Shown here: positions 1 to 36,700 of the stretch, piece by piece
How positions within the stretch are numbered: the first letter of the stretch is position 1
Layout of the letters: every line of letters starts with the position of its first letter
From: Jaapia argillacea MUCL 33604
Taxonomy: Eukaryota; Basidiomycota; Agaricomycetes; Jaapiales; Jaapiaceae
Assembly (NCBI GenBank): GCA_000697665.1
Contig: KL197766.1
Span: 1 to 37,012, forward strand
Direction of reading: 5' to 3'
DNA: 37,012 nucleotides
The notes under the pieces: model-generated
Database searches by the model: none
What the model saw: only the letters and a program-made list of their open reading frames with translations
Told to the model about the DNA's origin: nothing
Program-made: the position numbers and the translations under genes

Positions 1-520
1 TACACAATCTATCTACGCACATGTAAGCGTCTATCACTAAGCGGGGCTGCTGCGCCCGTGCTTCTACTGCGAGTCCTGAGTAACTATCCTGAGTTACGGT
101 CCTGAGTTAGGTCATACGACGTACTTGGAGAAATCTAGAATGACTGCGGCGTAGTGCGCAGCAACTCAGAGAAATCTGGACTACTACAGAGTTCTGGAAT
201 GTTCTACATGACATCAGGGGGATCTGGAGGTGTCTATCACATGACTTACCTGGCGCTTGTTATGTTCGACGATCTAGACTGAACCTTCTAGGTTAGGGTT
301 GAATTGTGGGATCCTTTATGGAAACCGTGACAGTGGCGTCCTCGAGGACGGCAATGAGACTGTATTTCCACCCCCAATTCTGAAGTAAGCGTCTCTCACC
401 ATATTAAAAGCAACCTCCATTTGTGACTGTCCATGAATAACTTGTCGATCATTTCACAGCTTGGACGGATATTAAGACCAGCAATGTGCTCCATCCTCGT
501 GTGGTGGACATATCGAGCAT
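1..520. other. Intergenic, no gene seen
   Basis: I see no supportable gene in this stretch. It holds a short 13-bp tandem repeat (listed separately) and several scattered TCTGGA-like words. From about 520 onward it merges into the promoter of the first GTPase gene. Confidence 0.5.
75..113. repeat. 13-bp tandem repeat, three copies
   Basis: The core CCTGAGTWA recurs at 75, 88 and 101, exactly 13 bases apart, with diverged 4-base tails. It is a small imperfect tandem array outside any gene. Confidence 0.6.
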
Positions 521-521
521 C

Positions 522-690
522 CTGGCGTCTATCCGATGCCGTATCTATTGTGATGGTCTGATCGAGATAAATATGGGTATTACGATGATCCTCTATGCTT
601 TATCGAAGGAGTCTGAGGGATCCCGTCGGCTATGGATGCGCTGTAAAGCGCTAGCTGGGTAAAGTTACCGTCTGACGCCTGTGTATATAT
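522..690 (+). promoter_or_regulatory. Promoter of GTPase gene 1: distal element plus TATA box
   Basis: A 16-bp element, CTGGCGTCTATCCGAT, lies at 522-537. A TATA box (TATATAT) follows at 684-690, 143 bp before the ATG at 833. The same element occurs upstream of the other three paralogues with the same order and near-identical spacing to TATA (162 bp start to start here; 154-156 bp in the others). The interval is homologous over most of its length to the reverse complement of about 10500-10730, the promoter of gene 2. A role as core promoter with a family-specific regulatory site is inferred. Confidence 0.65.
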
Positions 691-832: not shown

Positions 833-2434
833 ATGGGCGGCGTCGTCTCTGTTGTCAGCGACATAGTTTCCGGGATAGGGAGATTACTTGGTATTGTCAG
901 GGATGCGGATATCACTCAAAACCCAACCATGCATGACGTCGAGGAAGCAGCTAGAGTAGTCGAAAGGCAACGGCAGGAAGCAGCCGAAGCCATGAGGAGG
1001 GCTCAGGAGCAGGCTGACGAAGCCAAGAGACAAGTTGAAGAGGCGAAGAGGAAGGCCGACGAAGCTAAGCAGAGGGCAGATGAGGCTCATCAGAGAAGCG
1101 AGAACGAGAAATGGAAGGCTGAAGAGGCGAAGCGGAGGATGGACCAGGAGAAGAAGGAGATGGAGGATGCGAGGAATAAAGCTGAGCAAGACAAGGCGAA
1201 AGCGGAAGAGGAAAGGAGGAAGGCCGACCAGGAGAGAAAGAACGCGCAGGAGGCGAAGGATAAGGCCGACCGAGAGAAACGGAGCGCAGAGGAAGCGAGG
1301 GCAAGGGCAGATGATGATCGGAAGAAAGCTGAAGATGCGAGGGTGAAAGCGGAGGAGGAGATGAAGAAGGCCGAGGATGACGCAAAGGAGACGAGAAGGC
1401 AGGCTGAAGAGAGTAGACTGGCGGCTGAGGCAGAGAGAAAGGTGGTGGAAGAGCAGAAGAGGGAGGCGGAGGAGGCATTCCTTCGAGCTGAAGAAGAGAA
1501 AAGGCTTGCTGAAGAGGAGGCCGATAGAGCCAAGGCTGAGCAGTTGGAAGCCGACGAGAGAGCGGCTGAGGCCCAGAGACAGGCGGACATTGCGAAAGCC
1601 GCTCAGCAAAAAGCAGTGGAGAACCTACAGGTGCAGACTGCCAGAGCCGACGAAGCGGAGACCAAGTGGATGCGAGGTGACCGACCAGTCGTATGGCCCA
1701 CGCTGGAGGAAATAGAGTCTGCCAAGATCCGATTTTATTATACAGAAGGAAAATTCCACTTCGCCATTGCTGGTCTTGCGGGTAGTGGAAAGTCGTCCTT
1801 GATCAACGCATTCCGCGGCTTGACCAATAACGATCCACGAGCGGCCAATACGGGTATCGTCGAGACCACCTTGCATGTCACGGGCTATCCGGATCCCGAT
1901 CCCAAGAATCCATTCATCTGGTACGACATCCCAGGTGCGGGTACTTTGGAGATCCCGGATTGGCAGTACTTCAATGCTCAAGGGCTCTTCGTCTTCGATT
2001 GCATCATCGTTCTAATCGACAACCGCTTCTCCGCCACGGATATCGCGATCCTCGAGAACTGCAAGCGGTTCAATATCCCCTCGTATATCGTCCGATCCAA
2101 GGCCAATCAGCACGTTTTGAACATCATGAATGACATGGGGTACGACTTCATGACGGACGACGGAACCCAACGCGCTCAGCTGTTGCCAGCGGCGCGGGCG
2201 AGGTTCATCGCTGAAACTCGCCAGAGCGTGAAGGCCAACTTGGAGAAAGCTGGGCTCTCTCCAAAAAGAGTTTATATCGTATCCAAGGATGCGATGGTGC
2301 CGGTTATCCAGGGAAAAGCGATGAGGAAGGACGCACTTATGGATGAGGTGGAACTCGTTGAGGATATATTGAAGGAGGCGACGCGTAGACGAGTGAAACC
2401 GAAGCAGAAAGCGCAATCTAGTTCCGCTTGCTGA
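833..2434 (+). CDS. Coiled-coil IRG-like GTPase, paralogue 1
   Basis: An intronless 533-residue protein. Residues 1-8 (MGGVVSVV) fit the N-myristoylation consensus (Gly2, Ser6) and are followed by a short hydrophobic or amphipathic stretch to about residue 23. Residues about 36-285 form a long charged coiled coil built from heptads such as KADREKR. The G domain follows: P-loop GLAGSGKS at 314-321, G3 DIPG at 365-368, an unusual G4 (RSKAN, 421-425), and a G5-like SKDA at 484-487. Order and spacing match the interferon-inducible IRG (IIGP) GTPase family. After G5 only about 50 residues remain, so the C-terminal helical domain of animal IRGs is missing or much reduced. The ATG at 833 is preferred because the MG-x-V-V-S start recurs in two paralogues and a TATA box lies 143 bp upstream. 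By family analogy it may act in membrane remodelling or defence; no function is shown here. Confidence 0.88.
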   Translation: MGGVVSVVSDIVSGIGRLLGIVRDADITQNPTMHDVEEAARVVERQRQEAAEAMRRAQEQADEAKRQVEEAKRKADEAKQRADEAHQRSENEKWKAEEAKRRMDQEKKEMEDARNKAEQDKAKAEEERRKADQERKNAQEAKDKADREKRSAEEARARADDDRKKAEDARVKAEEEMKKAEDDAKETRRQAEESRLAAEAERKVVEEQKREAEEAFLRAEEEKRLAEEEADRAKAEQLEADERAAEAQRQADIAKAAQQKAVENLQVQTARADEAETKWMRGDRPVVWPTLEEIESAKIRFYYTEGKFHFAIAGLAGSGKSSLINAFRGLTNNDPRAANTGIVETTLHVTGYPDPDPKNPFIWYDIPGAGTLEIPDWQYFNAQGLFVFDCIIVLIDNRFSATDIAILENCKRFNIPSYIVRSKANQHVLNIMNDMGYDFMTDDGTQRAQLLPAARARFIAETRQSVKANLEKAGLSPKRVYIVSKDAMVPVIQGKAMRKDALMDEVELVEDILKEATRRRVKPKQKAQSSSAC

Positions 2435-2600
2435 GGACGGACTCTACTTTTTTTAATGTACCAAGTTAGCATTGGTTGATATTGAAGGATGACGAATCGA
2501 CGAACGATCGAAATTCATGCTTGAAACAGCAGACCTCGACGATGACTCCCCAGTCGAAGTCGGAGTCCTCTCGGGCTGAAATACCACCCACGTGAATGTC

Positions 2601-5095
2601 TCATAGCAGCAGATGCATGAGGTTGCGAGAGGTAAACGTCGAGATGTCTTGAAACTTGGAACCTGGTGAAACCAAATATCATAAAGTAAGCTGAGATCAT
2701 CGGTCGCTTACCACTGGCTCCGACTTCAACACCTAAGCCATCGCAACTGAAGGAAATCCCGTCGTGAGCGGTGAGGTATATGAGGCCAAAGGACCGAGGC
2801 GTGATTCCAGGTATCGTGAATTCGAGTTCAATTTTAAGTAAGAGACAAAGAATCACCGATATTCCAGGCAGTTGTTTTCAGACGAAAAGATAACGGAGTG
2901 CTCAGCTCCTCGTCGACCTTAGACTGTGCCGTGGTGACCACAGCAGCATAAGTAGCAACGTGGTAACAAGCATCGTCCCATTCCACAACTCATTTCTGGA
3001 GGAGTGTGTGCATTGACGCCTCGGGAAATAAACCTGGAGGTACAAACAGCACATATCAGGTCAAGACTGGATGTGGATAGCGCCGTGGTAAGGGTACGTG
3101 ATACACCCAAGTACAGTATAAGCAAAAGACAAGGTAGAAGACCAAAAGGGATTTCGGGTATCTGGATAGACTGGCGTATTACATATATCGTTCATGATTA
3201 AGGGTCCAAAGAGAGGAATAAGTTACAGATAATTACGCAGGGTTACCATCACGGATTCCTCAAAGATTGATGGTGAGGATTGGATGGATGGATGGGATGG
3301 ATGGGAAGAAGAGAGGAGAGTGTACAGGTGAAGTCCGCGAGAAACGCCTTCTGGATTGTACAATCTATCAAAATGAAGTCGTAGTCAGCGTGGAATTAGG
3401 GCAGAATGTATGGAGAGATGGTGAACGGAGAGAAAGATGGTCAGAATAACGAAAAGTACTCACGAGATGGGTTCAGGTTACTTGCTAGTGAGATCAGGTT
3501 CGTTTTCAGATTCATCCTTGGTAAGTTCTTTAATAAGGTTCTCTTGTAAGATAAGTGGGATGACGACGGGTATATCAAGACTCAATCTACCCCAGACAAT
3601 GATCATCAGCACTCTAATCACATCGAGCTAAAGATAGATGAACCGGCGACTCACGGGTATGTCAACCTCTGGTCCGGGTCCTCCAGTTCCTTCACCTCAG
3701 TACTCGTACTAGGTAAAAGGGGCTGCCGAACGGAAGAAGGTTCGTATAATTGTAACAGAGCGGCATCGAGACTGGGTAACCAATCTATCCATCCGGATTT
3801 GGGTGCCATGCGGGATGTGCGAGAGGGTACGTGAGAAGAGGTGGAGACGGTGGCAAGCGTTGAGGAAGAGGTCCGTGCGGCGGCGTTACGGAGAGGTGAG
3901 AGGTTCTTTGACGAAGATTGGGATTGGGCTTGGGACGAGGGCGGTGTACTGGTGGATTTCGAATAGGAGGAGGAAGATGAGGAGGATGCGGAGGGGGTGG
4001 ACAGAGAGGATGAGGGGGAGGAGAACGACAAAGATGGGGGAGAGATGGAAGTGATGATGGGCACTGCCGTGATCTCGTGATCGCCCTCGGGGCAAGGCTG
4101 GGCAATGAGGCGAGGTGACGGAGGTTCATGAATTGTCGTTGAACAATGGAATGGAAGTGGCTTTTCGGATATTTCGTGGGCGATTGGGGAACCGCGAGTG
4201 AAGCCGAACGAGAAACGCGTCCAGAATTGGGAAATTCTGAATATGCTACGAGGAGGCGCGCCACAAGGTATGTGTGGTTCATCATCCTCTTCCTCGTCGT
4301 CATCTCCAAGGGTGGCCATGTCTGAGGCAGGGTCTAAGGAAGCGTCAGTGGATCTGTGACACGTGCGAAAATGAACGACCTGGTGCTTACCTGACTCGAC
4401 CTCCAAATATTCCTTGAATTCAAACATGCTGGCAACGACTGTGGTGGTAGTCTCCTCTTGACAATGAGCACGGGCGTCGCTATGAGCCATCATGCCAGAT
4501 AACGGCGCGGTGACAGTGGCAGGGGGGTTGTGGAAAGAACGTCAGCTTGACCTGTGGTTTCCGCGTGAGTCAGTGGTGAATTCAAGGATGGGGGGAGGAG
4601 AAAACAAAATAGAGCGCCTGAGGGGATGATGGGGAAAATGCGACGAGGTCGGCGGAGAAGGGCGATATGTAAATGAACCACTCGATAAAGTTTGTGAAGT
4701 CACTAAGGGAGCAACGTGCATGGGCTAAGCGACACTGCTTTGGCCTTTCACCTTCCATCCGTTGGATAGAACGATGGGGAAACTGGCACACCGAAAGACT
4801 GCGATTGTAAACGGGTGTTGAAAGATATCATCAAAGGAGACGAACACCCTCGTTCAAGGATGAACAGCGCCACGAACAACACCAATTTCAAGCTTGTTTG
4901 CCGTTGGCAACGGCGAAGAAACACAAAGCGAAAATGACAGCAACCATCGTCGACGACACTCACCTTTGTAGCTAGTGGTCTGTGCGCAATGCTGGACACG
5001 ACGATGAGAGTCGTGATAAGGAGATGGGAGAAGGAGATGGGGGTTGTGGTGGAGACCAAGGTCCAAATGATAGCGCTAGAACCAGATCTGAGTTT
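2601..5095 (-). CDS. Candidate spliced gene of unknown function, exons unresolved
   Basis: Several minus-strand stretches look coding but I could not join them into one model. About 5090-4963 encodes a hydrophobic, membrane-segment-like stretch ending at a GTGAGT donor. About 4450-4391 ends at a GTAAGC donor. 4350-3655 encodes a Ser-rich protein with an acidic run (DDDEEEDDEP) and ends at GTGAGT. A further exon-like piece ends at the GTGAGT donor at 3463-3458. About 2990-2850 gives a frame containing WDDACYHVATYAAVV, and 2840-2712 gives another containing LEFTIPGITPRSFG before a GTAAGC donor. The frames do not connect cleanly, so this may be one multi-exon gene, two genes, or a decayed locus. 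I do not recognise the family. Confidence 0.28.
3277..3306. repeat. GGAT-type microsatellite
   Basis: A short run of imperfect GGAT/GATG units, low complexity, within the unresolved region. No further role is apparent. Confidence 0.6.
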
Positions 5096-5189
5096 CGGTC
5101 ATTTTTGCCACTTCTCTTGAACCTTCCACTTCGCGTGGCATCCAATATCCTTGAGCTCCATCTCTCTTTGCTTGTTTTTGAAGACTAAG

Positions 5190-7100
5190 GAGCGCTATGC
5201 TATTCGCAAGTAACTATACTTTGCCTTTGAGGTATTCTCAGTCAATTTTGATTGGCAAGGTTGCTGATGGCCGTCAGATCTAGAAAATCCGACGCCTAAT
5301 TCAAGTCACCGAACATGGTTATCTCACGCAGTTCGTCGGCACTCGTTCCTACTCCTCCCCAATTTCCTCCCAAGAGGCTCGCGCAGGATATCTGCTTATC
5401 GAAGTGTCAGAGGTATAGTTGTTCGAACCCGGAGAATCAACTTGACCGGGCGCCAACAGTCCTTTGGTACCAGAGACGCTGAAACCAAGGGATCGGGAGA
5501 CCCGACGTCTAACTGCGCATCCCTCCCACACGTTGTCATTTCTCGCGTGGGTTCAATTCTTGCTTCACTTTTCATCTGACCTCAAGAAGGCCTTGCAACT
5601 ACTGCCGGACGGCGTGGAGCGAGCGTCGCGGCTGGTCTGATGTCGTCTAGTCTGCCTTGATGAAGATCTCATCGACTCGGGCTGGTGTTACCGAATCGCA
5701 TACGCCCATCCATCGCACCGATCGTCCGCCAATATCAAAAAGCGCTGCCGTTATATATCAAGAGAAGTTCCATCGTCACTTTTCGATACATATCTTACTC
5801 AGTGCGGCAATAGCTTGCGCGTTTTGTCGCAGCTTCACATATCTACGAGATGGTTCCTTGAGTATGTCCCCAACGAGCTCGCACCTAACCCATAATGATT
5901 CTCCCCTCCTCAGGCCTTAGTTGGACGTCTGCCGCCACGGTTTATTTGGACAAGACATGCATACTTTGTGGAGGAAGGTTGGCCTTCTCTCAGTCTCTCT
6001 TTGCGTTCTCTTGGGTTTTAGAAATGGTCCTCGTACGTGCGACTGGCATCATCCGAGCCAGTGGTCAGCCAAGACGAGCGAATAGCCCCTGGGTTGAAAG
6101 ACGACCAGTCGTGAATGATCAGGGACCTATACAACACAAGGTATCGGTTTTGGATGGACCGTGTCAATGAGCCACCCCGGTAGCAGGAGAGGTGACACAT
6201 GACAAGGAACACCCGACCGTCAGAGCTGTTGGATTTGATTTCTTTCGAGCTCCCATGACCAGCTTCGAATTGTATGGACACTGGAGTAGCTCGTCACTCA
6301 GGCCTTGGTGCGGATGAGAGCTGTGAGTCGTATACGCACTGAATGAAACGTGAAGAACACCTAGAAAGGCCTCGGAACCCCATCGAGGATTCGCATCTTC
6401 GCCATCTTGAATCCGCCCTTGACTCAGTCATGAGACGGCAAGCTTTGTTGCTAAGTGCTAAGCAGTAAGGCCGTACTACCTCACTAGTCATCACTGCGAG
6501 GAGTTTGGACTACTGAAGAGGAATCTGCCAACGAGCCACAGCATTTTTGGCTCGGACCTCACAGACACGCTGGATGGTGTATCCCTCAAAATCCTGCGCA
6601 CTATGCATCCAATCAGGGCTTGACACGGGTCAAGGAGGAGGAATAACTTGCGAGCCAGTTGATCACCCAGGATGCTAGAGGACGTAGGGCGCGCTGATCA
6701 ATTGTAACGGTAGCACTTCAACTCGGTCTCAGCTCCCCACATCTCACCTCCGAGAACTGAACTCTGTCTATGATGGGCCGGCTAGTTCAACTCATCAGTT
6801 GTAGCCCTTGCATGCGACACACTATCGAAGCCGTCACCTCGAAGAAGCCAAAATTTGGCACGCGATCAGGACGAAGGTTTGAGAATCGACAGATTCTATG
6901 AGACTGTAGAATACTAGTAGCGCATTAAGGGCGGTCAAAGGCAAGAAGTTGATCCGACGACCTCTCCGGCCCCACTGGTTGTAATTTGTGTAAAATTCAC
7001 CCATGTGAAATCTTACCAAGGGATATCGCGGCTGATAAGGCGGGGAAGAAGAGCGGATGGCTTTGGGTGGAGCCAACGCCGCAGGTGACTCTGCAAACGA
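5190..7100. other. Intergenic stretch with no supportable gene
   Basis: Only short overlapping open frames occur on both strands, without splice-site-bounded continuity or recognisable motifs. A cysteine pair (CILCGG) in a short plus-strand frame near 5960 was noted but has no support. No tRNA or mobile element was recognised. Confidence 0.45.
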
Positions 7101-7125
7101 TCTAGGTCGGTATCGGTTGCGCTGG

Positions 7126-7177
7126 CCAATGGAGCGAAGGGTGCCGCAAACGACAACATGGCTCCTGTGTATAAATA
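7126..7177 (+). promoter_or_regulatory. CCAAT box and TATA box of the metallothionein-like gene
   Basis: A CCAAT pentamer at 7126-7130 is followed by TATAAATA at 7170-7177, 168 bp before the ATG at 7338. This is a plausible core promoter. I did not identify a convincing metal-response element. Confidence 0.5.
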
Positions 7178-7337
7178 CAGGTCACAGGGACGAAGCATAC
7201 ACCAGCCAAAGGCAGAGACTTACCCTTCATTCGACAATTCCACTCTCACAAGTCCCCACCTGTGAGTCGAAGCGTCTCCCTCTCACAATCCTTTGCTTGC
7301 TCACCTCAACGTCAAGACTATTCCTCATTTGATAACA

Positions 7338-7475
7338 ATGGCTGGAGCATGTGGAGAACCCCAATGCAACTGCGGAGAATCGTGAGTAACACTTCCCGTT
7401 TACAATGATTGACCTCACAGTTGATCGCTTCGCGATAGGTGCAAATGTCAACCAGGGGCTTGCAAATGCGTTTAG
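7338..7475 (+). CDS. Small metallothionein-like Cys-rich protein, two exons
   Basis: Exon 1 is 7338-7381, the intron is 7382-7438 (57 nt, GTGAGT...AG) and exon 2 is 7439-7475. The spliced frame encodes 26 residues, beginning MAGACGEPQCNCGES and ending at TAG. Seven cysteines fall at positions 5, 10, 12, 16, 18, 23 and 25, giving three C-x-C motifs, and there are no aromatic residues or histidines. This is typical of fungal class metallothioneins, which chelate Cu(I), Zn or Cd in the cytosol through cysteine thiolate clusters. The intron sits between two Cys-rich halves. TATA and CCAAT boxes lie at suitable distances upstream. The start codon is in a good context (acaATGG). The gene is too short for usual gene finders. 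A chance Cys-rich frame is possible but unlikely, given the clean splice sites and motif spacing. Confidence 0.8.
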
Positions 7476-7479
7476 CAGT

Positions 7480-8060
7480 TGTCCAAACCTTGCGGCCATA
7501 AATGTTCATCGACGGGTTTTGGTTTTGAGGCGTAAGAGGGTGGGGCAGCGTGTACGAATTTGACGAGAAAATTGTTTCGATGACCCATTATCTTTGTACC
7601 TGTGGCGTTTCGAGTCGGTTACAATCTTGAATCCGACGGTTCAATTCGACCTGCGCATTCGGGCTTGTGCAAGAAAATTCGTCATGTGTGGGTTAGCGCA
7701 ATTGTGGATGACTTTGGCGACGCTGGAGTGAACCCAACCACGTAAAACTCGCCGCTCTGAACAAGACCGACCCCTCACCTGAGCCTAGACTCCCTGCAAG
7801 CTACCTAAACAGATCTCTGGTGGGCAAGCAGCCCTCGCTCGATGGAGAGCGAACCGCCGAACTGACCTCTTGTTCCGACCGAATATCGCTCTGCAGTCGC
7901 CTTGCTCAATTCGGGCTATTCGACATGAATCCTCTGGCAGAAATATGTGCAGAGAGACGTACCCAACGGTCACAACAATTAGTGTGAACGATCATTTTCG
8001 AAATGGTTGTAGCATACCGAACAACTTGGGCATTCAGTATCCGAGTCTTAGGAAGTCGGT
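7480..8060. other. Intergenic, no gene seen
   Basis: This contains the downstream flank of the metallothionein-like gene. Open frames here are short and unconvincing. Confidence 0.45.
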
Positions 8061-8067
8061 GATCATA

Positions 8068-8670
8068 CTAATCACTGATTCGGAGTCCAAGAGCGAAGTC
8101 AGATTGTGGACAACTTGAATGGCGGCAAGTCGAACTGGAGCATGGATGAGAACTTCGGTCGCAGGGGTCACACTCAAAAGTGAACATACCAAACGCCACC
8201 GTCGTGCGCTTCACTTCAATTCCACTATAGGTAGAGTCGTCTGTCTGATCCGCCGGGGAGAGCACAGGTGGAATCAAGGGAGTAACAAAGTGACAACCGT
8301 TAGTTGAACCGCAACCCTGGACAAACGGAAGTCCTGCTCCGTTCTCATCATGATTGAAAACAACACCTATCGATAAGAGTAAAAAAAGGAAGCGAACGAT
8401 ATGCAGATGACTGCCAGTGACGGTGACATTGTCGCTCGATGGAACGATTGCAGATGGATCAATCATCATCCTCAGATGATCAATGTGAGAGTACTGTGCC
8501 ATTCTGCAGTGTGCCAGTCGCGCTGAGGATGCCAGAGTTGAAGTGCAGAGTCCTTCCACACACATCACACAACATCGAGATTGGGCTGGGATCACCCTTT
8601 CGGCCCTTTCCCCTCTGGCATCGACCTGCTTGGTGGTGAGGCGACGAGTCTGGCATTCAAATTCCTCCAC
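8068..8670 (-). CDS. Hypothetical minus-strand open frame, probably spliced
   Basis: A frame of about 200 residues is open, but the best coding signal is the middle piece at about 8355-8190. It follows an acceptor-like TCGATAG and ends at a strong GTATGT donor (8189-8184). It contains FNHDENGAGLPFVQGCG and TPLIPPVLSPADQTDD. An upstream piece includes DPSAIVPSSDNVTVTG. The downstream exon was not found. It lies just beyond the 3' end of GTPase gene 2, in convergent-free tandem orientation. The family is not recognised. It could equally be a gene remnant. Confidence 0.25.
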   Translation of the reverse strand: MEEFECQTRRLTTKQVDARGERAERVIPAQSRCCVMCVEGLCTSTLASSARLAHCRMAQYSHIDHLRMMIDPSAIVPSSDNVTVTGSHLHIVRFLFLLLSIGVVFNHDENGAGLPFVQGCGSTNGCHFVTPLIPPVLSPADQTDDSTYSGIEVKRTTVAFGMFTFECDPCDRSSHPCSSSTCRHSSCPQSDFALGLRISD

Positions 8671-8795
8671 CCCAGTTCGGCCCTGGTGGGTTGTCGAAGT
8701 GAATTTCCATGGTTTGATGACTCGTCATCTGCTAATATCCACCAATTCTCTCGGAGTACATCGACAGAACACCATCCTCAACAAGCAAGACTATT

Positions 8796-10382
8796 TTACG
8801 CCTTCTGCTTCGGTTTCATACGTCTACGTGTCGCCTCCTTCAAGATATCCTCAACGAGCTCCACTTCATCCATAAGTGTGTCCTTCCTCATTGCCTTTCC
8901 TTGGATAACCGTCACCACAGCGTCCTTGGACACGATATAAACTCGTTTTGGAGGGAGCTCAGCTTTCTCCAAGTTGGCCTTCACGCTCTGGCGAGTTTCA
9001 GCGATGAACCTCGCCCGCGCCGCTGGCAACAGCTGAGCGCGTTGGGTTCCGTCGTCCGTCATGAAGTCGTACCCCATGTCATTCATGATGTTCAAAACGT
9101 GCTGATTGGCCTTGGATCGGACGATATACGAAGGGATATTGAACCGCTTGCAGTTCTCGAGGATCGCGATATCCGTGGCGGAGAAGCGGTTGTCGATTAG
9201 GACGATGATGCAATCGAAGACGAAGAGCCCTTGAGCGTTGAAGTACTGCCAATCTGGAATCTCCAAAGTACCTGCACCTGGAATATCATACCAGATGAAT
9301 GGATTCTTGGGATCGGGGTCGGGATAGCCTGTGACATACAGGGTGGTTTCGACGATACCCGTATTGGCCGCTCGTGGATCGTTGTTGGTCAATCCACGGA
9401 AGGCATTGATCAAGGAGGATTTTCCGCTACCCGCAAGGCCAGCGATCGCAAAGTGAAATTTCCCTTCGGTATAATCAAATCGGATCTTGGCAGACTCGAT
9501 TTCCTCCAGCGTGGGCCATACGACTGGTCGATCACCTCGCATCCACTTGGTCTCCGCCTCGTCGGCTCTGGCAGTCTGTACCTGTAGGTTCTCCAGCGCT
9601 TTCTGCTGAGCAGCTTTCGCAACGTCCGCCTGTCTCTGAGCCTCAGACGCTCTCTCGTCGGCTTCCAATTGCTCAGCCCTGGCTCTATCGGCTTCCTCTT
9701 CAGCCAGTCTCCTCTCCTCTTCAGCTCGAAGGAATGCCTCCTCAGCCTCCCTCTTCTGCTCTTCCACCACCTTTCTCTCTGCCTCGGCGGCTAGTCTGCT
9801 CTCTTCCGCCTGCCTTCTCGTCTCCTTTGCGTCATCCTCCGCCTTCCTCATATCCTCCTCTGCCTGAGCCCTCGCATCTTCAGCTTTCTTCCGATCATCA
9901 TCTGCCTGAGCCCTCGCCTCCTCCGCATTCTGTTTCTCTCGGTCGGCCTTATCCTTCGCCTCCTGCGCGTTCCTCCTCTCCTCGTCAGCCTTCTTCTTTT
10001 CCGCTTCCGCGTGCCTCTTTTCTTCCTCAGCTTTATTCTTCGCATCTTCCATCTCCTTCTTCTCTTGGTCGATCTTCCTCTTTGCATCCTCAGCCTTCCG
10101 TTTTTCATCGTCACTTCTCCGTTGCGCCTCGTCTGCCCTTTGCTTAGCTTCTTCAGCCTTCTTCTTCGCCTCGTCCACTTGTCTCTTTGCTTCGTCGGCA
10201 TCGTCTTGGGCCTTTTGCAAAGCTGCTGCTGCCGCTAACCTCTGCCTCTCGACTTCTGCCGCAGCTTCCTCGACGTCTTGCATCGTTGGGTTCGGAGCGA
10301 CATCCGAACTTCTGAGAGCGCGAATCAGACCAACTACTCCGGCGACCACAGCGGGGATAACAACAGAAACGACGGCGCCCAT
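8796..10382 (-). CDS. Coiled-coil IRG-like GTPase, paralogue 2
   Basis: An intronless 528-residue protein and inverted twin of the gene at 833-2434. It starts MGAVVSVV, again with Gly2 and Ser6 for possible N-myristoylation, followed by a strongly hydrophobic stretch (residues 7-23). A coiled coil of near-perfect heptads (units such as KADREKQ and QADDDRK) spans about residues 37-286. The G domain has P-loop GLAGSGKS at 315-322, DIPG 51 residues later, the same RSKAN G4 and SKDA G5. The frame is open upstream to 10424 but without an ATG, so the ATG at 10382 is taken. It ends at KQKA, shorter than gene 1 because the stop falls earlier. Coding sequence, promoter and some 3' flank are all homologous to gene 1. 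Function is inferred only by family: a dynamin-like or IRG-like membrane GTPase. Confidence 0.88.
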   Translation of the reverse strand: MGAVVSVVIPAVVAGVVGLIRALRSSDVAPNPTMQDVEEAAAEVERQRLAAAAALQKAQDDADEAKRQVDEAKKKAEEAKQRADEAQRRSDDEKRKAEDAKRKIDQEKKEMEDAKNKAEEEKRHAEAEKKKADEERRNAQEAKDKADREKQNAEEARAQADDDRKKAEDARAQAEEDMRKAEDDAKETRRQAEESRLAAEAERKVVEEQKREAEEAFLRAEEERRLAEEEADRARAEQLEADERASEAQRQADVAKAAQQKALENLQVQTARADEAETKWMRGDRPVVWPTLEEIESAKIRFDYTEGKFHFAIAGLAGSGKSSLINAFRGLTNNDPRAANTGIVETTLYVTGYPDPDPKNPFIWYDIPGAGTLEIPDWQYFNAQGLFVFDCIIVLIDNRFSATDIAILENCKRFNIPSYIVRSKANQHVLNIMNDMGYDFMTDDGTQRAQLLPAARARFIAETRQSVKANLEKAELPPKRVYIVSKDAVVTVIQGKAMRKDTLMDEVELVEDILKEATRRRMKPKQKA

Positions 10383-10565
10383 TTCAGGATAGTGCGAAGA
10401 TGAAGTGTGCAAAAATGGTTTCAACTGGTACGTGAGGTGTAATGGATAAGGTCAAGCGCAATTTTGCTATCGAGGGGGCGACGAGGAGCGTACCTCAAAA
10501 TGTGAACGGTCTCGATTCAGTCTTGGGTGATTCAACCGAATACTTCACCACAGTCCTCCAGCGAG

Positions 10566-10726
10566 ATATATACACGGGCGTCAGACAGTGACTTTACCCA
10601 GCCTCACAGCACATGCATCGATTCAGGGATTCCTTAGACTCAGTCCATAAAGCATGGAAGATCATCGCAATACCCATATTAGTCTATAATGCAATCACGA
10701 TAGATACAGTATCGGATAGACGCTAG
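10566..10726 (-). promoter_or_regulatory. Promoter of GTPase gene 2: distal element plus TATA box
   Basis: On the minus strand the distal element CTAGCGTCTATCCGAT starts at 10726. The TATA box TATATAT starts at 10572, 154 bp downstream and about 190 bp before the ATG. The sequence GACGCC(C)GTG just before TATA is shared with gene 1. Confidence 0.65.
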
Positions 10727-10921
10727 GATAAGTACATGCTATATCCACACTGGCAGTACATGAGGACGGAGTACATTGTTCAATTTAATATTCGTCCGAG
10801 CTGTGAGATGTTCGACGACTATTCCTGGATAGTAAGGGACTGAGGATTGGTTTTAATTTGCGAGAGGTGCTCACCATTTGATTAGGGCGCTGCGGTGGGA
10901 ATACAACCCTCACAGCTAACG

Positions 10922-11482
10922 TCAAGAGCGCTGTGCGGACAAGGAAGCTTTCGCATTCGCCGCTTCAATCCGAGCCTTGTCGGCTCTCTGGTCTGCTTCG
11001 GCTTGTTTCGATTTCGCTCGACCGGCGAGCTCTTCCGCCAACGTCTTCTCTTCCTCAGCCTGACGAAGATCCTCTTCAGCCCCCTTCTTAGCCTCTTCGA
11101 CCGCCTTCTCCTCCGCCTCAGCAACGCGTATGTTCTCTTCGGCTCTCCTTCTCGTCTCCCTTTCCTCATCCTCAGCTTTCCTCACGTCCTCATCCGCCTT
11201 CCTCTTGATCTCTTCTGCCCGCATCTTCTCTTGATCGAACTTCGTTCTCGCCACTTCTATCCTCGTCTGCTCTTCCTCGATCTTCTTCCTCACATCTGCA
11301 ATCTTCCGTACCTCCTCTTCAACCTTCCTTCGAGCATATTCCGCCCTCTGCTTAGCCTCGGCGACTTGTCTATGTGCCTCGTCGGCGGCTACCCTCGCCT
11401 TCCTTGCCGCCTCTGCCGCCTCTTGCCTGGAACCCTCTGCTTTGGCCGCTATTTCATCGATAGTGGAAACGACGGAACCCAT
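10922..11482 (-). CDS. Coil-only paralogue of the IRG-like GTPases
   Basis: A 186-residue protein starting MGSVVSTIDE (Gly2 and Ser6 again suggest N-myristoylation), followed by continuous charged heptads to the C-terminus (units such as KAEDEER and RAEENIR). The last third, with AEELAGRAKSKQAEADQRA, aligns with the end of the coil in the full-length paralogues, but the stop comes where their G domain linker would begin. No P-loop or other GTPase motif follows downstream; the promoter of gene 2 lies there. It has its own TATA box and the shared distal element. It may be a truncated duplicate kept as a coil partner that could heteromerise with the GTPases (inference), or a young remnant. An exon of a larger gene is possible, but I found no continuation. 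Confidence 0.72.
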   Translation of the reverse strand: MGSVVSTIDEIAAKAEGSRQEAAEAARKARVAADEAHRQVAEAKQRAEYARRKVEEEVRKIADVRKKIEEEQTRIEVARTKFDQEKMRAEEIKRKADEDVRKAEDEERETRRRAEENIRVAEAEEKAVEEAKKGAEEDLRQAEEEKTLAEELAGRAKSKQAEADQRADKARIEAANAKASLSAQRS

Positions 11483-11669
11483 GTGTAGAGGAGGGTTACG
11501 ATACGGTTGTTGGTGCTATTTGGCCTGTAAAACAGAAGTGTCTCGTAGGTTTGAGCAACACCATCGCCAACAAAGATAGTGAACGTACTGGAAAGGCTAC
11601 TGTGCAAACGCCAAACGCAAACTGGGGGCAGGATACTTGGAAAACTATCACAGCCAAACGCCCAGTTGC

Positions 11670-11832
11670 ATATATAGTCGGGCATGTGGTAGAGGCTTGA
11701 CCGACCGCATCGCTGGCCTTTGGGCCTTGGTGCATTCCATCTGTGTCGATCAAGGGAGGGAGATGGCCCCAACGTCCATTTTGATCTGCATTGCAGCGTT
11801 TTGGGGGTATAGGTTCATCAGCCAGACGCAAG
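11670..11832 (-). promoter_or_regulatory. Promoter of the coil-only gene: distal element plus TATA box
   Basis: On the minus strand a diverged distal element, CTTGCGTCTGGCTGAT, starts at 11832. TATATAT starts at 11676, 156 bp downstream and about 190 bp before the ATG at 11482. It matches the gene 1 element at 12 of 16 positions, and the spacing is conserved. Confidence 0.5.
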
Positions 11833-11839
11833 GGTGTGT

Positions 11840-12610
11840 GATGCGTGAAGACCACACGAGGGTGGGACAACGATAGACACGCGGCAATAGCCTGAGGCAT
11901 GTGTGCACGCCTTGATTGGGGATGTGGGTCGCAGAAATCGAACAGAAGTTCCACGTTACCATCATAGCATCAAGATCGACATTCAGCATGATTGAAAATG
12001 CGGACTTCAGTCACACACCTGGCTGCCATGAGGTAGCCACGACCCAGAGGAGAGACGAGCCCCCAACTCGATGGTTGTGGGCGAAAGAAGTCTCCGAGAA
12101 GGAGATGGCTAGATATGGATTCTTCCATCCTTGGGTGGTGCGATTCATTGAACGTTCATTTTCGTGGTTGTCGAACGGACCGTATCAGTGCGCGTACCAC
12201 TGGGCCAGCGACAGTCCTACGGTAAGTCTGACCGAAATATTAGACTATATACCGAGTCGACTGTAATAGCGTCAAGCGAATTAATTATCTGTTATCGATA
12301 TCCTTCCCCTCCGAAATCCTTGAGCTTTCTATGAGAACCTGACGATGAGGAGCGCCAGAGCTTGGAGGCGGGCGACGGAGACGTGGCGCAAGCAAGTTGC
12401 GGGTCATCGGCCCGACATTAAACCCAAACCTTCATCAAGGCTGGCAACTGGCACAACTGAGCGCGTCCAAGCGGACTATTCGGGTTCTTGCTACAAAGTT
12501 ACGCCCCTTATGTCAACGTCCCGGAATCCAGCATACGTTCGCTACAATCCTATTCGAACAACAGTACATGACAAGTCTAAGGAAACACAACATGATGAAC
12601 CACAGTAGTA
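11840..12610. other. Intergenic, no supportable gene
   Basis: A plus-strand frame at 11916-12266 (116 residues, containing FFHPWVVRFIERSFSWL) is open, but it has no recognised motif, promoter or splice context. I do not call it a gene. Confidence 0.4.
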
Positions 12611-12623
12611 CCGCCATGACAAG

Positions 12624-14036
12624 TTACGCATCTGCTTTGACTCTCGAGCCTTTGTGGGTCGACTCCTTCAGGATATCCTCAAAAAGTTGCACCTCGTCGA
12701 TGACTCTATCCTTCCCAATCGGCCTTCCCTGGACGACTGCAGCCATCGTGTCCTTGGAGACGACGTAAACCTTTTGTGGAGGAAGCCCAGCTTTCCCCAG
12801 GTTCGCCTTTACGCTCTCGCGGGTTTCCGCTAGAAACTTCGCCCGTGCTGCTGGCATCATCTGAACGCGTTGCGTCCCATCGTCCATCATAAAATCATAA
12901 CCCATGTCCGTCATGACGTTCAAGATATGCTGGTTCGCCTTGGATCGGACGATATACGAAGGAATATGGAACCGTTTGCAGTTCTCGAGGATCGCGATAT
13001 CCGTGGCGGAGAAGCGGTTGTCGATCAAGACGATGATGCAGTCGAAGACGAAGAGGCCTTGGGCGTTGAAATATTGCCAGTCGGGGATCTCCAAAGTGCC
13101 CGCACCTGGAATATCGTACCAGACGAAAGGGTTCTTGGGATTAGGATCTGGGTATCCGGTGACCTGCAAGGTGGTTTCGACGATCCCCGTATTAGCCGCT
13201 CGTGGATCATTGTTGGTCAATCCGCGGAAGGCATTGATCAAGGACGACTTTCCACTGCCCGCGAGCCCAGCAATCGCGAAGTGGAAGTGTCCCTCGGTAT
13301 ATCCAAATCGAATCTTGGCGGATTTAATGTCGTCGTCAGTCGGCAATACGACTGGTCGATCTCCACGTAACCATTTGGCCTCCATTTCATCCGTCCTCGA
13401 AACCTGCTGCCGGAGATCATCCAGCGCTTTTTGTTCCCTTGCTTTCGCGGCATCCGCCAGACTCTGGGCCTGGGCGGCTCTCTCGCCTGCTTCCAACTGG
13501 ATTTCCCTCGCCCTAGCGGCTTTCTCTTCAGCCAATCTCTTCTCCTCTTCTGCTTGTTGCCGACCTACTTCCGCCATCCTCTTCCTCTCTTCCGCTTCCT
13601 TCCTCTCCGCCTCTGCCGCCCGCATCCTCTCCTCAGCTTTCCTCTTCGTCTCCCTTGCTTCGCTCTCAGCCTCCCTCCTCTCCTCCTCGGCCTTGACTCT
13701 GGCAGCCTCCGCCCACCTCTTCTCATCTTCAGCTCTAGCCCTGGCTTCGTCCACCATCCTCTTTTCTCGATCAGCACTGTCCTTCGCCTCTTGCATCCTC
13801 CTCTTCTCCTCGTCAGCTATCCTCTTCGCCTCTTCCGCCATCCACTTCTCGTGATAAGCCTGATTCCTTGCCGCCTCTATTGCCCGCTTCTCGTCCTCGA
13901 TTCTTCTTCTCTCATTCTCCCAAGTCCTTCTTTCCTCATCAATCTTCCGCTGGGCTTCTTCGGCCCTCTGCCTAGCCGCAGCAGCCTCCTCCTTGAACCT
14001 CGATATCTCTCTAGCAGCTTTTTCAGGGTCGCACAT
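12624..14036 (-). CDS. Coiled-coil IRG-like GTPase, paralogue 3 (N-terminus diverged)
   Basis: A 470-residue protein from the ATG at 14036. The coiled coil spans about residues 2-230 and is clearly diverged from the coils of paralogues 1 and 2. The G domain is nearly unchanged: P-loop GLAGSGKS at 257-264, DIPG at 308-311, G4 RSKAN and G5 SKDT. The start aligns with an internal Met of the other paralogues (their TM-x-DVEEAA). Upstream in the same frame is a TAA, and at 14120-14118 a relic ATGGGC opens a frame that stops after five codons. The TATA spacing (about 164 bp) fits that relic ATG better than the ATG used here. Either the myristoylated start was lost by mutation or a short first exon is spliced in a way I could not confirm. 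Confidence 0.82.
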   Translation of the reverse strand: MCDPEKAAREISRFKEEAAAARQRAEEAQRKIDEERRTWENERRRIEDEKRAIEAARNQAYHEKWMAEEAKRIADEEKRRMQEAKDSADREKRMVDEARARAEDEKRWAEAARVKAEEERREAESEARETKRKAEERMRAAEAERKEAEERKRMAEVGRQQAEEEKRLAEEKAARAREIQLEAGERAAQAQSLADAAKAREQKALDDLRQQVSRTDEMEAKWLRGDRPVVLPTDDDIKSAKIRFGYTEGHFHFAIAGLAGSGKSSLINAFRGLTNNDPRAANTGIVETTLQVTGYPDPNPKNPFVWYDIPGAGTLEIPDWQYFNAQGLFVFDCIIVLIDNRFSATDIAILENCKRFHIPSYIVRSKANQHILNVMTDMGYDFMMDDGTQRVQMMPAARAKFLAETRESVKANLGKAGLPPQKVYVVSKDTMAAVVQGRPIGKDRVIDEVQLFEDILKESTHKGSRVKADA

Positions 14037-14277
14037 GATTGTGTTTTACGCGATATCCGAGGCTCGAAGTTGGTGGGGTAAGGTCGATATGTTGGTGATG
14101 TGTCAAAGGATTACGCCCATTCGGTGGAGAAAACGCGAGCGATCGTCGAGCAGTAAAGAGCAGTTTCAACGGGGATGAAAGGTACTATGACCCAAGATGT
14201 CGACGATGATACAATGAGTGCCCTTGTTGAGTCGTTTGCCGTCTTACTGGCCGAGAGGCAGAGATTTACCGAGTAGC

Positions 14278-14439
14278 ATATATACACGACCGCCAAACGG
14301 GAACCTTATTCTTCTTTGCTGCGCATCCTTAGCAGCTTCGCCTTCGATGTTCCCCTTCCGCCCATCACGATGGAAGATCGTGTCAACATTGCTCTGCAGT
14401 ATAGCATATTCGGCAGCCTGCGCATCCGATAGACGCCAG
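14278..14439 (-). promoter_or_regulatory. Promoter of GTPase gene 3: distal element plus TATA box
   Basis: On the minus strand the distal element CTGGCGTCTATCGGAT starts at 14439. TATATAT starts at 14284, 155 bp downstream. The motif GGCGGTCGTG precedes the TATA box, as in genes 1 and 2. Confidence 0.62.
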
Positions 14440-14941
14440 GTCTGTGATTCCTTCGCACTACTAGCATGAGGATAGAGGGCTTTGCTCGGCTTAATATCCG
14501 CTAGTGCTGTGTAACAATAAACAATGTTCTACCCACGTCCTAGGAGAGAGAAGGAAGACACGCCAATTGTGGAAAACGGAGGTCAAGAGAAATGAAACCT
14601 AGTGAACACAACGTTAGTGAAATACCAGTGCGTGTGCACCATGAACTATATGGGTCTTCGCAGGGTTGATCGAAAGCCTGATCGCCCCGACCCCCATTCG
14701 ACCGCATTTCATGAACTATCACAACGGGTGTTCGTCCTGGATTTTTCACCAGCCCCTTTTTTCATCTTCACCAATTCCCTAACTCCGAGTCTATTTCCAA
14801 TGGCACCGAACCCAGATCGAGTGAAATGGTACATGTTAACAATGCACATGGTGTCGTACATGACAGTTTCATCGAGTGAAGCACTGGATCCGAGTGACTC
14901 AAGGATAAATGCCACATTTCGGCGGTCGAGTGTCGTCTTAC

Positions 14942-16771: not shown

Positions 16772-19700
16772 ATGATACTCTCTCGCTTCACGCGAAGTCT
16801 CAAACGTCTCCTCCGGAGAAAGAGGTTCAATACATGCCCTGCTACCCCAGCTCTACCGCCGAGTCCAAGGCCATCGCTGGACACCATTTCAAATCCACCC
16901 ATCGTAATCAACACGGAGGGCTCAGTACTCTCAGCGTCACCATCGAGGAGATCTACGACTTCTGCAATTATCCTCAATGCAACTTGTGCTCGCGCCGAGC
17001 GACTCGTACTAGTCGAAATCCCACATACCGGTGAGCCCGCCACCTCATGTCTTTCATTCGATCATCTAACGCTCTTACAGGAACTGTTGAACATAGTGTT
17101 CGATCATCTTCCACAGCCAACCCCACGGAACAGCAACCGGACCTCTCCGTTTTGCGAGTAGAAAGCAGCTCGCCCAGAAACGACGACGATTTCTTGGCGC
17201 CTCACCCTAACCGTTTGTCTCCGAATGGTGAGCACCCCACCCACATTCACTTGCCCGACTTGCGTCTGACGTAGAATAATAGATGAACGGAATGCATCGT
17301 CACCAGTACCTACTTCCCTGGAAGTTGGATCGAGAGACGTTAACGAAACTGCCGAGTTGGCATCACCTTCCCGGAGAGATATCGGTGTCCAGACGGGCGA
17401 TATCATGGACGAGCTTGCCTGGGATACGCACAAGGCGGAGACAGACGCGATCGACTCCTTGGAGTGGAAAGCCGAAGTGGAAGATACCCCCATAGACGAA
17501 ATCTCCTCGCACCCAGAGCGAGGTATCCACTTACCTCAACCCGACTCTCTCAACGCAGAACGGTCAGGTGGGGGGATCGGAAATGATCCTCCGCCACGTT
17601 CATCCCGTGCTGAAGACTCATTGAGCCCTTTCCGATACCCACCTCCGATCAGCCATTGCCAATCCAGCCCAGGTGCCCCCACCCCTTTACACCACCTTAG
17701 CTGTACGACGAACGACTTCGCTTATAGCGATGTCAGTCCAAGACATGGCTTCGCCTCTCGCGGAAAACCTCATCTCGTTCCCGGCTTTTGAACCGCAAGG
17801 CCTTTTTACGGACATTACGGAGAGCCTCAACGAGGTTGAAGAAGTCCACTTATCGCATCGATCCACAACGCGAGATGGATTTTTACCACCATACCTAACA
17901 TCACCCCCTGCTGAGAACCTCCCCCAACCGAACTTCTCGCCAAAGTTGGGTTTCCGCAGAACACCCCGGTCTAGTCGTCCGCTCCCCCTCCTACCGACAC
18001 CAGGAAATGGGCTGGGACTGATAGGAATGCCTACCAACATCGCATGTGAAGATAGCGATGCAAGGCTTACTCTCCCACTGGATCCCTTTAGTCTACCAAC
18101 CCCGACTCCTTTTCGTCCTCCAGGTCTTCCCTCACCGATACAACGCCCAATCGACCTAATCACGATTGACGGAGCCCTCTCTCCCTCCCCTTGCACGAAC
18201 ACCCAACCTAGTCAAGATCCTGACAAAGCGATGGCTCGGATTATGCGTATCATCGAACAAGCACATCCCTTTACGCCTGTTTCGCATGAGCGGTCGGGGT
18301 TTGACTCTCCTCGGAGGTCTGAAGCTCCTCAGTGGCCTCCACTGTTTCAATCACAGGCGAGGTCTGTGGATCTGCCTTCGTCACGGGTTGCGAACTATGG
18401 CGTTTCAAGGGTCGGAGAGGTTGAGCCTTTTACTCTGGGGAGTTCATACCACGCAACGCGTGAAACTCCTCCGCCCCCTGTTAATCCTCTCAAAAATGGG
18501 ATTTGGAACGTCACACAAATACGACAAATTAGGATCGATCCTACCGGGACGCGTCAATGGTATACAGGTGGTACCCTCGGTATGGGAGGGTTTTCGGCTG
18601 CTTACCTCGTTTACAACCCCATGCATGAACGGGAAGTGGTTATCAAGTGTATGAGGGCGTGTCTTCCTGTTTCGAGGAGAACCATAGAGGGTGTGATGAA
18701 TGAGGTCAAGGTGCTAAAGAAGTTGAGGGAGGAGGAGCGCAGGTGTGGTGGGGGGAACTTTTTGTTGAAGCCTGGGTTTGGACCGAAGGGTGTAGATGAA
18801 GCGTTCTATTGGTTCTCTAGTTTGGGGTTCTTACAAATCGCGATTGTGAGGAGCTTGTTGTTTTTTACCTTGGATATCGCTAATCGTCTTTCGCGTATAG
18901 GAGTATTGTCCGGGCGGCGACTTGGTTCAGTACGCGAAACGACTCACCTCCCCCCAGTTATCTCTCGTCTTCGCAGAAGTGGTAAGAGCACTCTCTCGCT
19001 GTGCTCCTCTTCCAGACCCTAATAACCTTCGTTCTTCATTCGCAGGCACACGGCCTCATTCACCTACACGATCTCGGCATAATCCACCACGACCTCAAAC
19101 CCAATAATATCTTCATCGACAGACTCGGTCACTGCGTCATCGCCGATTTCAATGGGTCCGTCTTCGTACCGATCCACCAGAAAGGAGTGAAGAGAGACAA
19201 CGATATCTATACTCTTGGTTTCGCTGCGCCGGAATTGGTTGATGAGTATGTGACTTGGTATGATCATGGGATTGATTGGTGGGCTCTGGGTGTTTGTATA
19301 TTCTTTTTGGAGACGGGAAAGGTGAGTCTTTGGTTTCGGTGTGGAGATGGAGGGATACTCATTATTGTCTGTGTGCATAGCACCTTGTTGGTATGGATAA
19401 CAATGAGCGCCCGTCTTCAATGGTCTTCTGGGAGGGTGTCGCGAGTATGGGCAAGAAACTTCGTGCGCGTGGCGCATCCCCTGATCTGATCGACCTTCTG
19501 CAGAAGGTACGTTCGGGGTCTCCTACATGTTTTGCAAGGTTCTTACGCGTGTATTGTTATTTCGCAATTCAGGTCCTTACATTGAACCCTAACGAACGAC
19601 TCCAAGGAAAATCTCTTTTTGCACACCCATACTTCCACAACCTGTATGTCTCTCCCTCTATCCATCATGCCAAGCGATACTTACTCCTGACTTCTCCCAG

Positions 19701-19914
19701 ACCTTGGGACCTCGTAGAATCAAAAACGAAACCAATCTTCGAATACGTACCACTCCAACCCACACGGAAAGATTTCCCATCCCGACCAGGCAAACATTGG
19801 GATGTGGCTGGGGTGTCAATCCTTTCACAACTTGCTGTGGAAGGGTTGGAGGTGCGGATGGATGATTCGTTCTTCCCAGATTTTGGAGATTTTGTGGAGG
19901 AGTTGGCGGGTTAG
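16772..19914 (+). CDS. AGC-like serine/threonine protein kinase, 9 exons
   Basis: Exons: 16772-17030, 17081-17227, 17283-17567, 17626-18845, 18901-18981, 19046-19321, 19381-19506, 19573-19643, 19701-19914. All introns are GT-AG and 50-66 nt. The product is 892 residues. The first 540 or so are low-complexity Pro/Ser-rich. The kinase domain then shows the glycine loop GTLGMGGFS (546-554), Lys571 (VVIKC), Glu590, hinge EYCPGGDL from 638, catalytic loop HHDLKPNN (678-685), DFN at 698-700 in place of DFG, AAPE (724-727) and DWWALGV, followed by the HPYF-type end of the C-lobe and a C-terminal tail. The third intron is the least certain, because a 28-nt GT-AG alternative (17673-17700) also keeps the frame. 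Catalytic residues are present, so activity is plausible; substrates are unknown. Confidence 0.85.
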
Positions 19915-20137
19915 GCGGATTGAGGTGTTTGGCCACGGATTCTGGTTTCGTTACTTATTTGTTGTTTAATTCTGCGGTGTATCGATAATTATATCTGGGA
20001 GCGTTGCATTCTCCCTGTCCGCCAGTCGAACATACCAACTTTGCGGATCGTCGTTGAGTGGACGAACTTCGACGACATCGGGGAAAGTGCATTGAAGATG
20101 GTTGGTGAAAAAAGAAAGCGAAGTGTTTTACAAAACA

Positions 20138-20224
20138 TGGACGCCAGGAGAATTGAACTCCTCCCCTCTCGCAAACATGAGAATCATGCTAAGCGAGCGT
20201 GATAACCAACTACACCAGGTGCCC
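20138..20224 (-). tRNA. tRNA-Ala(AGC) with 13-nt intron
   Basis: The minus strand reads GGGCACCTGGTG at the 5' end. The anticodon stem is CTCGC/GCGAG with loop TTAGCAT interrupted after position 37. The T arm is AGGAG/CTCCT and the discriminator is A. The anticodon is AGC and the acceptor carries the Ala identity pair G3:U70. A run of six T on the transcript strand (20113-20108) could terminate Pol III. Confidence 0.88.
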
Positions 20225-20406
20225 GACGGCGATATTACCCTCTGATACACTAAGATGCTTGGGGAGACAACCGACGTGAAAATGATGCTGAGGCGGTTTC
20301 AACTGTGTGCTTAGCTCGAGAATGCAAATATTTGTGTGACAAAGCCTACATCTCAATCTAAAGGAGTTTCAAGTTGGGCACAAAACGAGACGATGTGAGT
20401 TACCCA

Positions 20407-36059: not shown

Positions 36060-36700
36060 AACGAGAAACCAAAATTGAACAGTATACAATCATTGCTGAC
36101 CTTGCAAAGATGAAGGATATCGGGATCGCTGATGACCAACACACAACAGAGCTGTGTCATATTTTGTGGGTGGTTCGGTGTAGGGAGTCGGACTCCAATG
36201 TGAATGACTTTAGATGGTGCTGTTCCAAGGTAGCAAAGGGTACGATTAGGGGCCCTGTTATCAAAGAGCAGTCAGCAGTCACAGTCTATGATATTGCTAA
36301 TGGAAAGCAATTCATCTGGTACTTACAACATCCTGGGCCAGTTATCTTGGACAACCCTAGTTTGCAATACTTCATTCAGCAGGGTCTCTTCATCTTCAAC
36401 TGCGTTATCATCAACAATTTCTGTTACAGATAACACGATTTTGGAGCACTGCGATAGCTTTAGCATCCCTTCATTGTTCAGCCAAAGGTGCAACAGCATA
36501 TTTCAAACATGAAAGAGGAAATGAATTCCAGTGATACGACTAACCATCAGACAAGACTTGCAGCCGTGTGAGTGAAGTGATTTCAGAAACTCATTGTAGT
36601 GCAGACTTGGAGGAAAACTTGGTGAGAGCTGGCCTCCCTCAACAAAGGGTTGATATTGTCTCCAAGAAGAATGTGGCAGTACAAGGAAGAAGAAAAAAAG
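36060..36700 (+). pseudogene. Decayed IRG-like GTPase G domain
   Basis: Blocks in different frames match the G domain of the cluster on the left. Around 36306-36410 a frame reads FIWYLQHPGPVILDNPS then LQYFIQQGLFIFN, corresponding to FIWYDIPGAGTLEIPDW then QYFNAQGLFVFD of the intact genes. After a frame change ITDNTILEHCDSFSIPS follows (about 36430). At 36601-36693, ENLVRAGLPQQRVDIVSK matches the G5 region. The P-loop is no longer recognisable (a GVGSRTP-like relic near 36175), the G3 motif is altered and stops interrupt. No coil precedes it. The surroundings are AT-richer than the rest of the window. This is a dead copy, older than the duplication that gave genes 1 and 2. Confidence 0.75.

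Follow-up and report, generated by a model that had tools for sequence, protein, structure and literature searches.

Background

Immunity-related GTPases (IRGs) have been studied as immunity GTPases of animals, whose helical domain is assembled from segments before and after the G domain. Some fungal proteins carry the database labels IRG-type G domain or interferon-inducible GTPase, so that the bare existence of such proteins in fungi may not be new. As is generally known, membrane tethers of the dynamin superfamily, such as atlastin and the GBPs, combine in outline a GTPase head, a helical stalk and a membrane anchor. For mouse Irga6, the parts of the literature considered here report that E106 is essential for the activation of hydrolysis, that E106, R159 and D164 are crucial for oligomerization and hydrolysis, and that the D186N mutant has a considerably lower guanine affinity, shifted towards xanthine nucleotides, but still oligomerizes and hydrolyzes GTP (PMC3042988). 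IRGB10 is described with a myristoylated N-terminus and a head-to-head G-domain dimer, in a paper that also draws a comparison with atlastin (PMC7815755), and a myristoyl group is present in Irga6 as well as in IRGB10 (PMC3042988, PMC7815755). Here we analyze a cluster of genes for coiled-coil proteins with IRG-type G domains at the beginning of contig KL197766.1 of the basidiomycete Jaapia argillacea MUCL 33604 (assembly GCA_000697665.1). The window is the whole stretch analyzed, namely the initial 37 kb (37,012 nucleotides) of this contig (C58) in a genome of 43.7 Mb, in which 56 hydrophobin matches are found, in keeping with a fungal and presumably mushroom-forming host.

The gene cluster and its IRG-type G domain

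The preliminary description of this locus, based on the order of motifs, listed four paralogues, three of them combining a long N-terminal heptad coil with an IRG-type G domain and one consisting of the coil alone, and noted that this layout reverses that of animal IRGs; all of this is borne out by the present analysis. The four frames are uninterrupted, genes 1, 2 and 4 encoding a coil followed by a G domain and gene 3 only a coil (Table 1). The Pfam profile PF05049 (IIGP) is the top hit of the three coil-G proteins (E 3.1e-21, 5.6e-21 and 3.7e-21 for genes 1, 2 and 4, respectively), with scores of about 76 bits compared to a cut-off of 24; across the genome this profile matches at seven places. 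All seven G domains, searched individually, hit IIGP. In a single-sequence search of the PDB, the best match of gene 1 is mouse Irga6 (8e-17), with 34% identity over 125 residues of the G1 to G4 region, and the 13 best PDB sequences are all animal IRGs.

The resemblance extends to individual residues. With Irga6 residue numbers taken from the chain positions of the structure, the equivalents of T102, E106, T108, R159, D164 and N191 are invariant in six aligned fungal G domains (a set that excludes gene 2) and, in a second alignment, in all seven; the P-loop GKSS (within the GSGKSS shared with Irga6) and the DxPG motif are invariant as well. The G4 motif differs from the TKVD of animal IRGs: it is SKAN in six of the seven members and SKAD in C55a, the IRG-type TKxD being found in none, and the guanine-reading Asp (D186 of Irga6) is accordingly Asn in the six and Asp only in C55a. 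This is the same Asp-to-Asn exchange, at the aligned position, as in Irga6-D186N (PMC3042988); unlike that mutant, which was made on purpose, the fungal Asn is natural and shared by six of the seven paralogues.

Also unlike animal IRGs, the fungal G domain is preceded by a coil of 212-240 residues and the proteins end after it. The IIGP profile is covered only at positions 35-157 of 375, the match ending after G4, and the chains stop about 100 residues past G4, after a conserved SKD segment that we read as G5-like; the two-sided helical domain of animal IRGs was not found. The C-terminal helical domain had been called nearly absent; profile coverage and chain length indicate that this domain is absent outright, so that these proteins are better described as IRG-type GTPases than as canonical IRGs. 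No dynamin, GBP or atlastin hit, including the stalk/GED profile, was obtained for the window proteins in Pfam at E up to 1, and the position of the helical part before the G domain is a further difference from the dynamin-superfamily tethers.

A search of the genome with gene 1 yields ten places, namely the four window genes, a decayed copy near the end of the window, which lies outside the range of the preliminary description (36194-36613 is matched with E 3.4e-8 and 29% identity), and five places on contigs C55 and C26 that correspond to four further family members (C55a, C55b, C55c and the C26 member). Gene 2 is an inverted duplicate of gene 1 (385-2517 / 8700-10874, 82% identical), with a core whose arms (850-2440 / 8772-10362) are 88% complementary. 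The C26 copy retains only about 120 residues of its coil, preceded in the same frame by sequence unrelated to the family; this copy is a translocated fragment or a fusion. A tree of eight G domains contained no starred branch and therefore no branching order is claimed. Outside the fungus, only two relatives were detected among the 591 pattern matches listed for prokaryote contigs, both of them short P-loop matches in genomes without a hit above the IIGP cut-off; none of the 186 pattern matches on viral contigs was a relative, and no relatives were matched in plasmid and phage collections.

Table 1. IRG-type genes, related copies and upstream elements (window positions unless another contig is named; aa, amino acids)
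Feature	Position	Strand	Remarks
Gene 1	833..2434	+	533 aa; MGGVVS start, N-terminal hydrophobic stretch, coil aa 36-275, IRG-type G domain aa ~298-525
Gene 2	8796..10382	-	528 aa, ATG at 10382; MGAVVS start, coil, IRG-type G domain
Gene 3	10922..11482	-	186 aa; MGSVVS start, coil only, no G domain
Gene 4	12624..14036	-	470 aa, ATG at 14036; start MCDPEK (no MGxxxS), coil and IRG-type G domain
Decayed IRG-type G-domain copy	36194..36690	+	5 in-frame stops
C55a	C55:5.8-7.2 kb		own-genome search with gene 1
C55b	C55:98.5-99.5 kb		two places; own-genome search with gene 1
C55c	C55:104.3-105.3 kb		own-genome search with gene 1
C26 member	C26:335 kb		truncated coil; own-genome search with gene 1
Element of gene 1	449..576	+	256 bp before ATG
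Element of gene 2	10674..10811	-	291 bp before ATG
Element of gene 3	11776..11867	-	293 bp before ATG; held out of model; E 5.3e-6 (2.5e-6 with filters off)
Element of gene 4	14384..14517	-	347 bp before ATG
Element at non-IRG gene	33006-33117	+	held out; E 2e-12 (9.8e-13 with filters off); gene start 33519
Element of C55c	C55:103185-103290	-	held out; E 2.6e-9

The coil and the coil-only gene

The coils of genes 1-4 comprise 240, 240, 172 and 212 residues, respectively. Alanine and hydrophobic residues together recur with a period of 3.5 residues in genes 1, 2 and 4 and best at 3.55 in gene 3, a periodicity that none of 300 shuffles reached in any of the four; for alanine alone, the shuffles reaching it number 0, 0, 4 and 5 of 300, the signal being weaker in genes 3 and 4. 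AlphaFold, with inputs consisting of window sequences only (4 or 3 rows), models residues 33-281 of gene 1 as helical, in the form of two helices (33-153 and 161-281), with ten-residue confidence means mostly of 70-93 and a dip to 49 at 151-160. Because this coil holds neither Gly nor Pro, the break in the model is probably a fold-back artefact of single-chain modelling.

The coil-only gene 3 matches nothing in Pfam at E up to 1, and a search of the 542 bp that follow it for remains of a G domain gave nothing beyond noise (best tblastn E 0.44). Its ratio of non-synonymous to synonymous substitution (dN/dS) is 0.16-0.26 in all five pairs with the five relatives used (C55b and C55c were not in this set), over 85-86 codons and at a synonymous divergence (dS) of 1.2-1.6; gene 3 is thus under purifying selection, and these values mark it as an old, kept gene. 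Among the seven coil-G members, compared without gene 3, dN/dS is 0.05-0.20 for the G domain in all 21 pairs and 0.13-0.44 for the coil in the 15 of 21 pairs that are computable (the other six, all with C55c, are saturated), many of the ratios, those of gene 3 included, being rough because dS exceeds 1. Of the two parts, the G domain shows the stronger conservation. A hypervariable coil was considered and rejected, given that its dN/dS stays below 0.45 in each of the 15 computable pairs.

A candidate lipid anchor

Five of the seven members with a readable 5' end start with MGxxxS, the N-myristoylation pattern, in each case at the first in-frame ATG of the open frame: besides genes 1-3 (Table 1), these are C55b (MGGVVS) and C55c (MGQAIS). 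The start of Irga6 is of the same type. In gene 4, the ATGGGC of its relatives can still be made out at the aligned upstream place, but the frame that it opens runs into a stop. The 19-residue Kyte-Doolittle maximum reveals a hydrophobic N-terminal stretch in gene 1 (1.83, at residue 4) and gene 2 (2.54) and none in gene 3 (0.10) or C55b (0.54), with C55c intermediate (1.22). The members with the motif are predicted to be N-myristoylated, and the membrane attachment suggested in the preliminary description gains support at the level of the motif.

A shared upstream element

A block of about 130 bp can be aligned from upstream of genes 1, 2 and 4, C55a and C55b. A sequence model built on these five copies and run on selected loci identified additional, held-out copies at gene 3, at C55c and at a gene unrelated to the IRG family (Table 1). 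The element occurs in sense orientation about 250-350 bp before the start in six of the seven members with a readable 5' region, the distance for C55a, whose start is unclear, being measured to the onset of homologous coding; at C55c, the sole copy is inverted and lies about 840 bp upstream, and no copy was found in the part of the stretch around the truncated C26 member that the model covered. A genome-wide search with the element pattern returned ten matches (one in the control), five beside IRG-type genes and five elsewhere with two mismatches each, around which the sequence model detected no element. With blastn, the element found only IRG-side copies and the copy at 33 kb only itself; as these blastn searches overlooked some copies known from the model, the genome may contain additional weak ones.

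In nine of ten pairs, identity within the element lies 4 to 19 points above that at four-fold sites of the same pair (1.5 points below it in the remaining pair, gene 4 and C55a), and in all ten it is higher than in the stretch between element and start; the block was picked for its similarity, which inflates both comparisons, so that the constraint is modest at best, and the copies partly reflect common descent. An RNA structure was not supported in the element (covariation term +2.84, kept double change in 3 of 21 pairs), and nothing in the window matched an Rfam family at gathering scores. The element could be a module that switches the set on together, and in this sense the co-regulation envisaged in the preliminary description is strengthened by a common motif.

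The same cannot be said of the partner protein that had been considered possible. When 219 open reading frames of the window (at least 70 aa) were compared with four 10 kb stretches around other members (E <= 1e-4), only IRG genes, the decayed copy and overlapping frames were recovered, and no non-IRG gene was common to the window and these surroundings, one of the four stretches being covered to about half and another slightly short, and short exons being liable to be missed. Nor does the non-IRG gene with the element (33519-34960) qualify. This apparently multi-exon gene belongs to a family, presumably typical of mushroom fungi, that is present at eight places in the genome, and its seven relatives have no element in the stretches examined; because the decayed IRG copy follows the element at 33 kb, the latter is most simply explained as what is left of an IRG promoter. 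Between this gene and the decayed copy, 34932-35813 consists of GC-rich repeats that, if coding, would yield a coil rich in Glu, Arg and Gln in one frame and Pro/Ala in a second.

Proposed mode of action and alternatives

We propose, with confidence that is about evenly balanced, that these proteins are membrane-anchored, rod-mounted GTPases of the IRG type whose nucleotide-loaded G domains pair and thereby tether or scaffold membranes. Under this model, the putatively N-myristoylated N-terminus, which in genes 1 and 2 is also hydrophobic, would be inserted in the membrane, and the Ala-rich coil of about 240 residues would pair chains and hold the G domain off the membrane, with a reach of up to about 36 nm if straight (0.15 nm per residue). 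Nucleotide-loaded G domains would pair head-to-head via the interface known from Irga6 and so link rods of the same or of facing membranes; the coil would also recruit the coil-only protein and those members that lack MGxxxS, which would thereby adjust valency and anchoring, and the common upstream module would switch the set on together. What the analysis demonstrates of this is the order of the domains, the homology, the conserved motifs, the selection and the shared element, whereas lipidation, pairing of coils and of G domains, tethering and common regulation are proposals.

Several observations weigh against this proposal. K101, K161 and K162 of Irga6 are not kept in the fungal G domains, and the Asn in G4 may mean weak GTP binding. 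The G domain was modelled without confidence (mean pLDDT, the predicted local distance difference test score, of 42 in a 274-residue model and about 23-46 over this domain in the full model), and of the 38 Foldseek matches that the full gene 1 model obtained at E <= 10, none reached E <= 0.001. The coil, being an Ala-rich and charged helix, might also remain single, most of the coil is missing from the C26 member, gene 4 and C55a lack MGxxxS, and the roughness of many of the dN/dS values has been noted above.

One alternative is that we are dealing with cell-autonomous fungal defence GTPases that, like animal IRGs, would be induced on invasion and load onto the membrane of an invader or a damaged organelle, breaking or marking it. 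The type of the G domain, the myristoylation motif, the common upstream element and the presence of clustered and dispersed paralogues with one decayed copy would all suit such a role. However, the IRG-type C-terminal helical domain is lacking, selection on coil and G domain is purifying rather than diversifying in every computable pair, and PADLOC reports only ZorA3 (E 5e-6) over the gene 1 coil and, with E 0.007, mad3 over a segment of 26 residues at the gene 4 P-loop, both of which are taken as composition or motif noise; we consider a defence function unlikely. We are equally doubtful about a scaffold without a GTP switch, in which the G4 Asn would reflect a weak or non-GTP binder and the coil alone would drive assembly on the membrane. 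This would agree with SKAN in place of TKVD in six of the seven members and with the lowered guanine affinity of Irga6-D186N (PMC3042988); yet the P-loop, DxPG and the equivalents of E106, R159 and D164 are invariant, the G domain is conserved better than the coil, and Irga6-D186N, as far as described in that source, oligomerizes and hydrolyzes GTP (PMC3042988). A housekeeping organizer of hyphal membranes or septa, with no link to defence, would be compatible with purifying selection and with a long coil like those generally known from structural tethers, but a core housekeeping gene would not normally be expected in copies that are clustered, duplicated and decaying, and we rate this option as improbable.

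Finally, that we are looking at a G domain of a different P-loop family (EngB, septin or ABC) that resembles IRGs by an accident of motifs is extremely improbable: MMR_HSR1 also exceeds its cut-off in Pfam for the window proteins (E 1e-6 to 1e-5) and in the NCBIfam scan ABC and EngB models match weakly, all falling well short of their cut-offs, but IIGP is ahead of MMR_HSR1 by at least 14 orders of magnitude in the three window proteins, all seven G domains match IIGP, and the PDB profile search gives 5.6e-22 for Irga6 and 6e-14 for the weakest IRG compared to 1.7e-4 for EngB, the next hit, which is more than 9 orders weaker. An unrelated P-loop family outscoring IIGP, the outcome named in the preliminary description as refuting the assignment, was sought in Pfam, NCBIfam and PDB and was not found.

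A more speculative extension of the proposed tether or scaffold, which we regard as rather improbable, is that the Asn equivalent to position 186 of Irga6 represents a natural guanine-to-xanthine switch of the family, which would read XTP/XDP or a low-affinity GTP state as a signal, with one G-domain-free and some unlipidated partners and one upstream module driving all. The open-access matches listed, judged by title and the start of the abstract, include no paper on fungal IRG proteins, and the combinations 'immunity-related GTPase' with basidiomycete and 'interferon-inducible GTPase' with fungi and Basidiomycota gave zero; what is described here is a new layout of a known type of GTPase. 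Fungal proteins that retain the residues for G-domain pairing and the lipid motif, but have lost the C-terminal helical domain and bear a long coil, would reveal which components IRG-type GTPases cannot do without. They also provide a natural counterpart of the D186N mutant for studying nucleotide choice, and with them the function of IRG-type domains in organisms other than animals can be tested directly.

Other features of the window

Five units of about 90 bp, 88-96% identical in pairwise blastn, are located at 20136-20763 and 28932-29325; one of them (29233-29321) is identified as tRNA-Leu by ARAGORN, and the units are probably dispersed tRNA-Leu genes or pseudogenes. A zinc-finger gene at 26040-28823 scores over the cut-off for zf-C3HC4_3 (E 4e-7) and zf-C2H2_13 (E 6e-7) and under it for RING_ZNF598 (E 9e-5), and is perhaps of the ZNF598/Hel2 type. 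At 17625-19914 lies a gene for a protein kinase that seems to contain introns; the Pkinase match (E 1.4e-19) falls in the frame 18986-19489.

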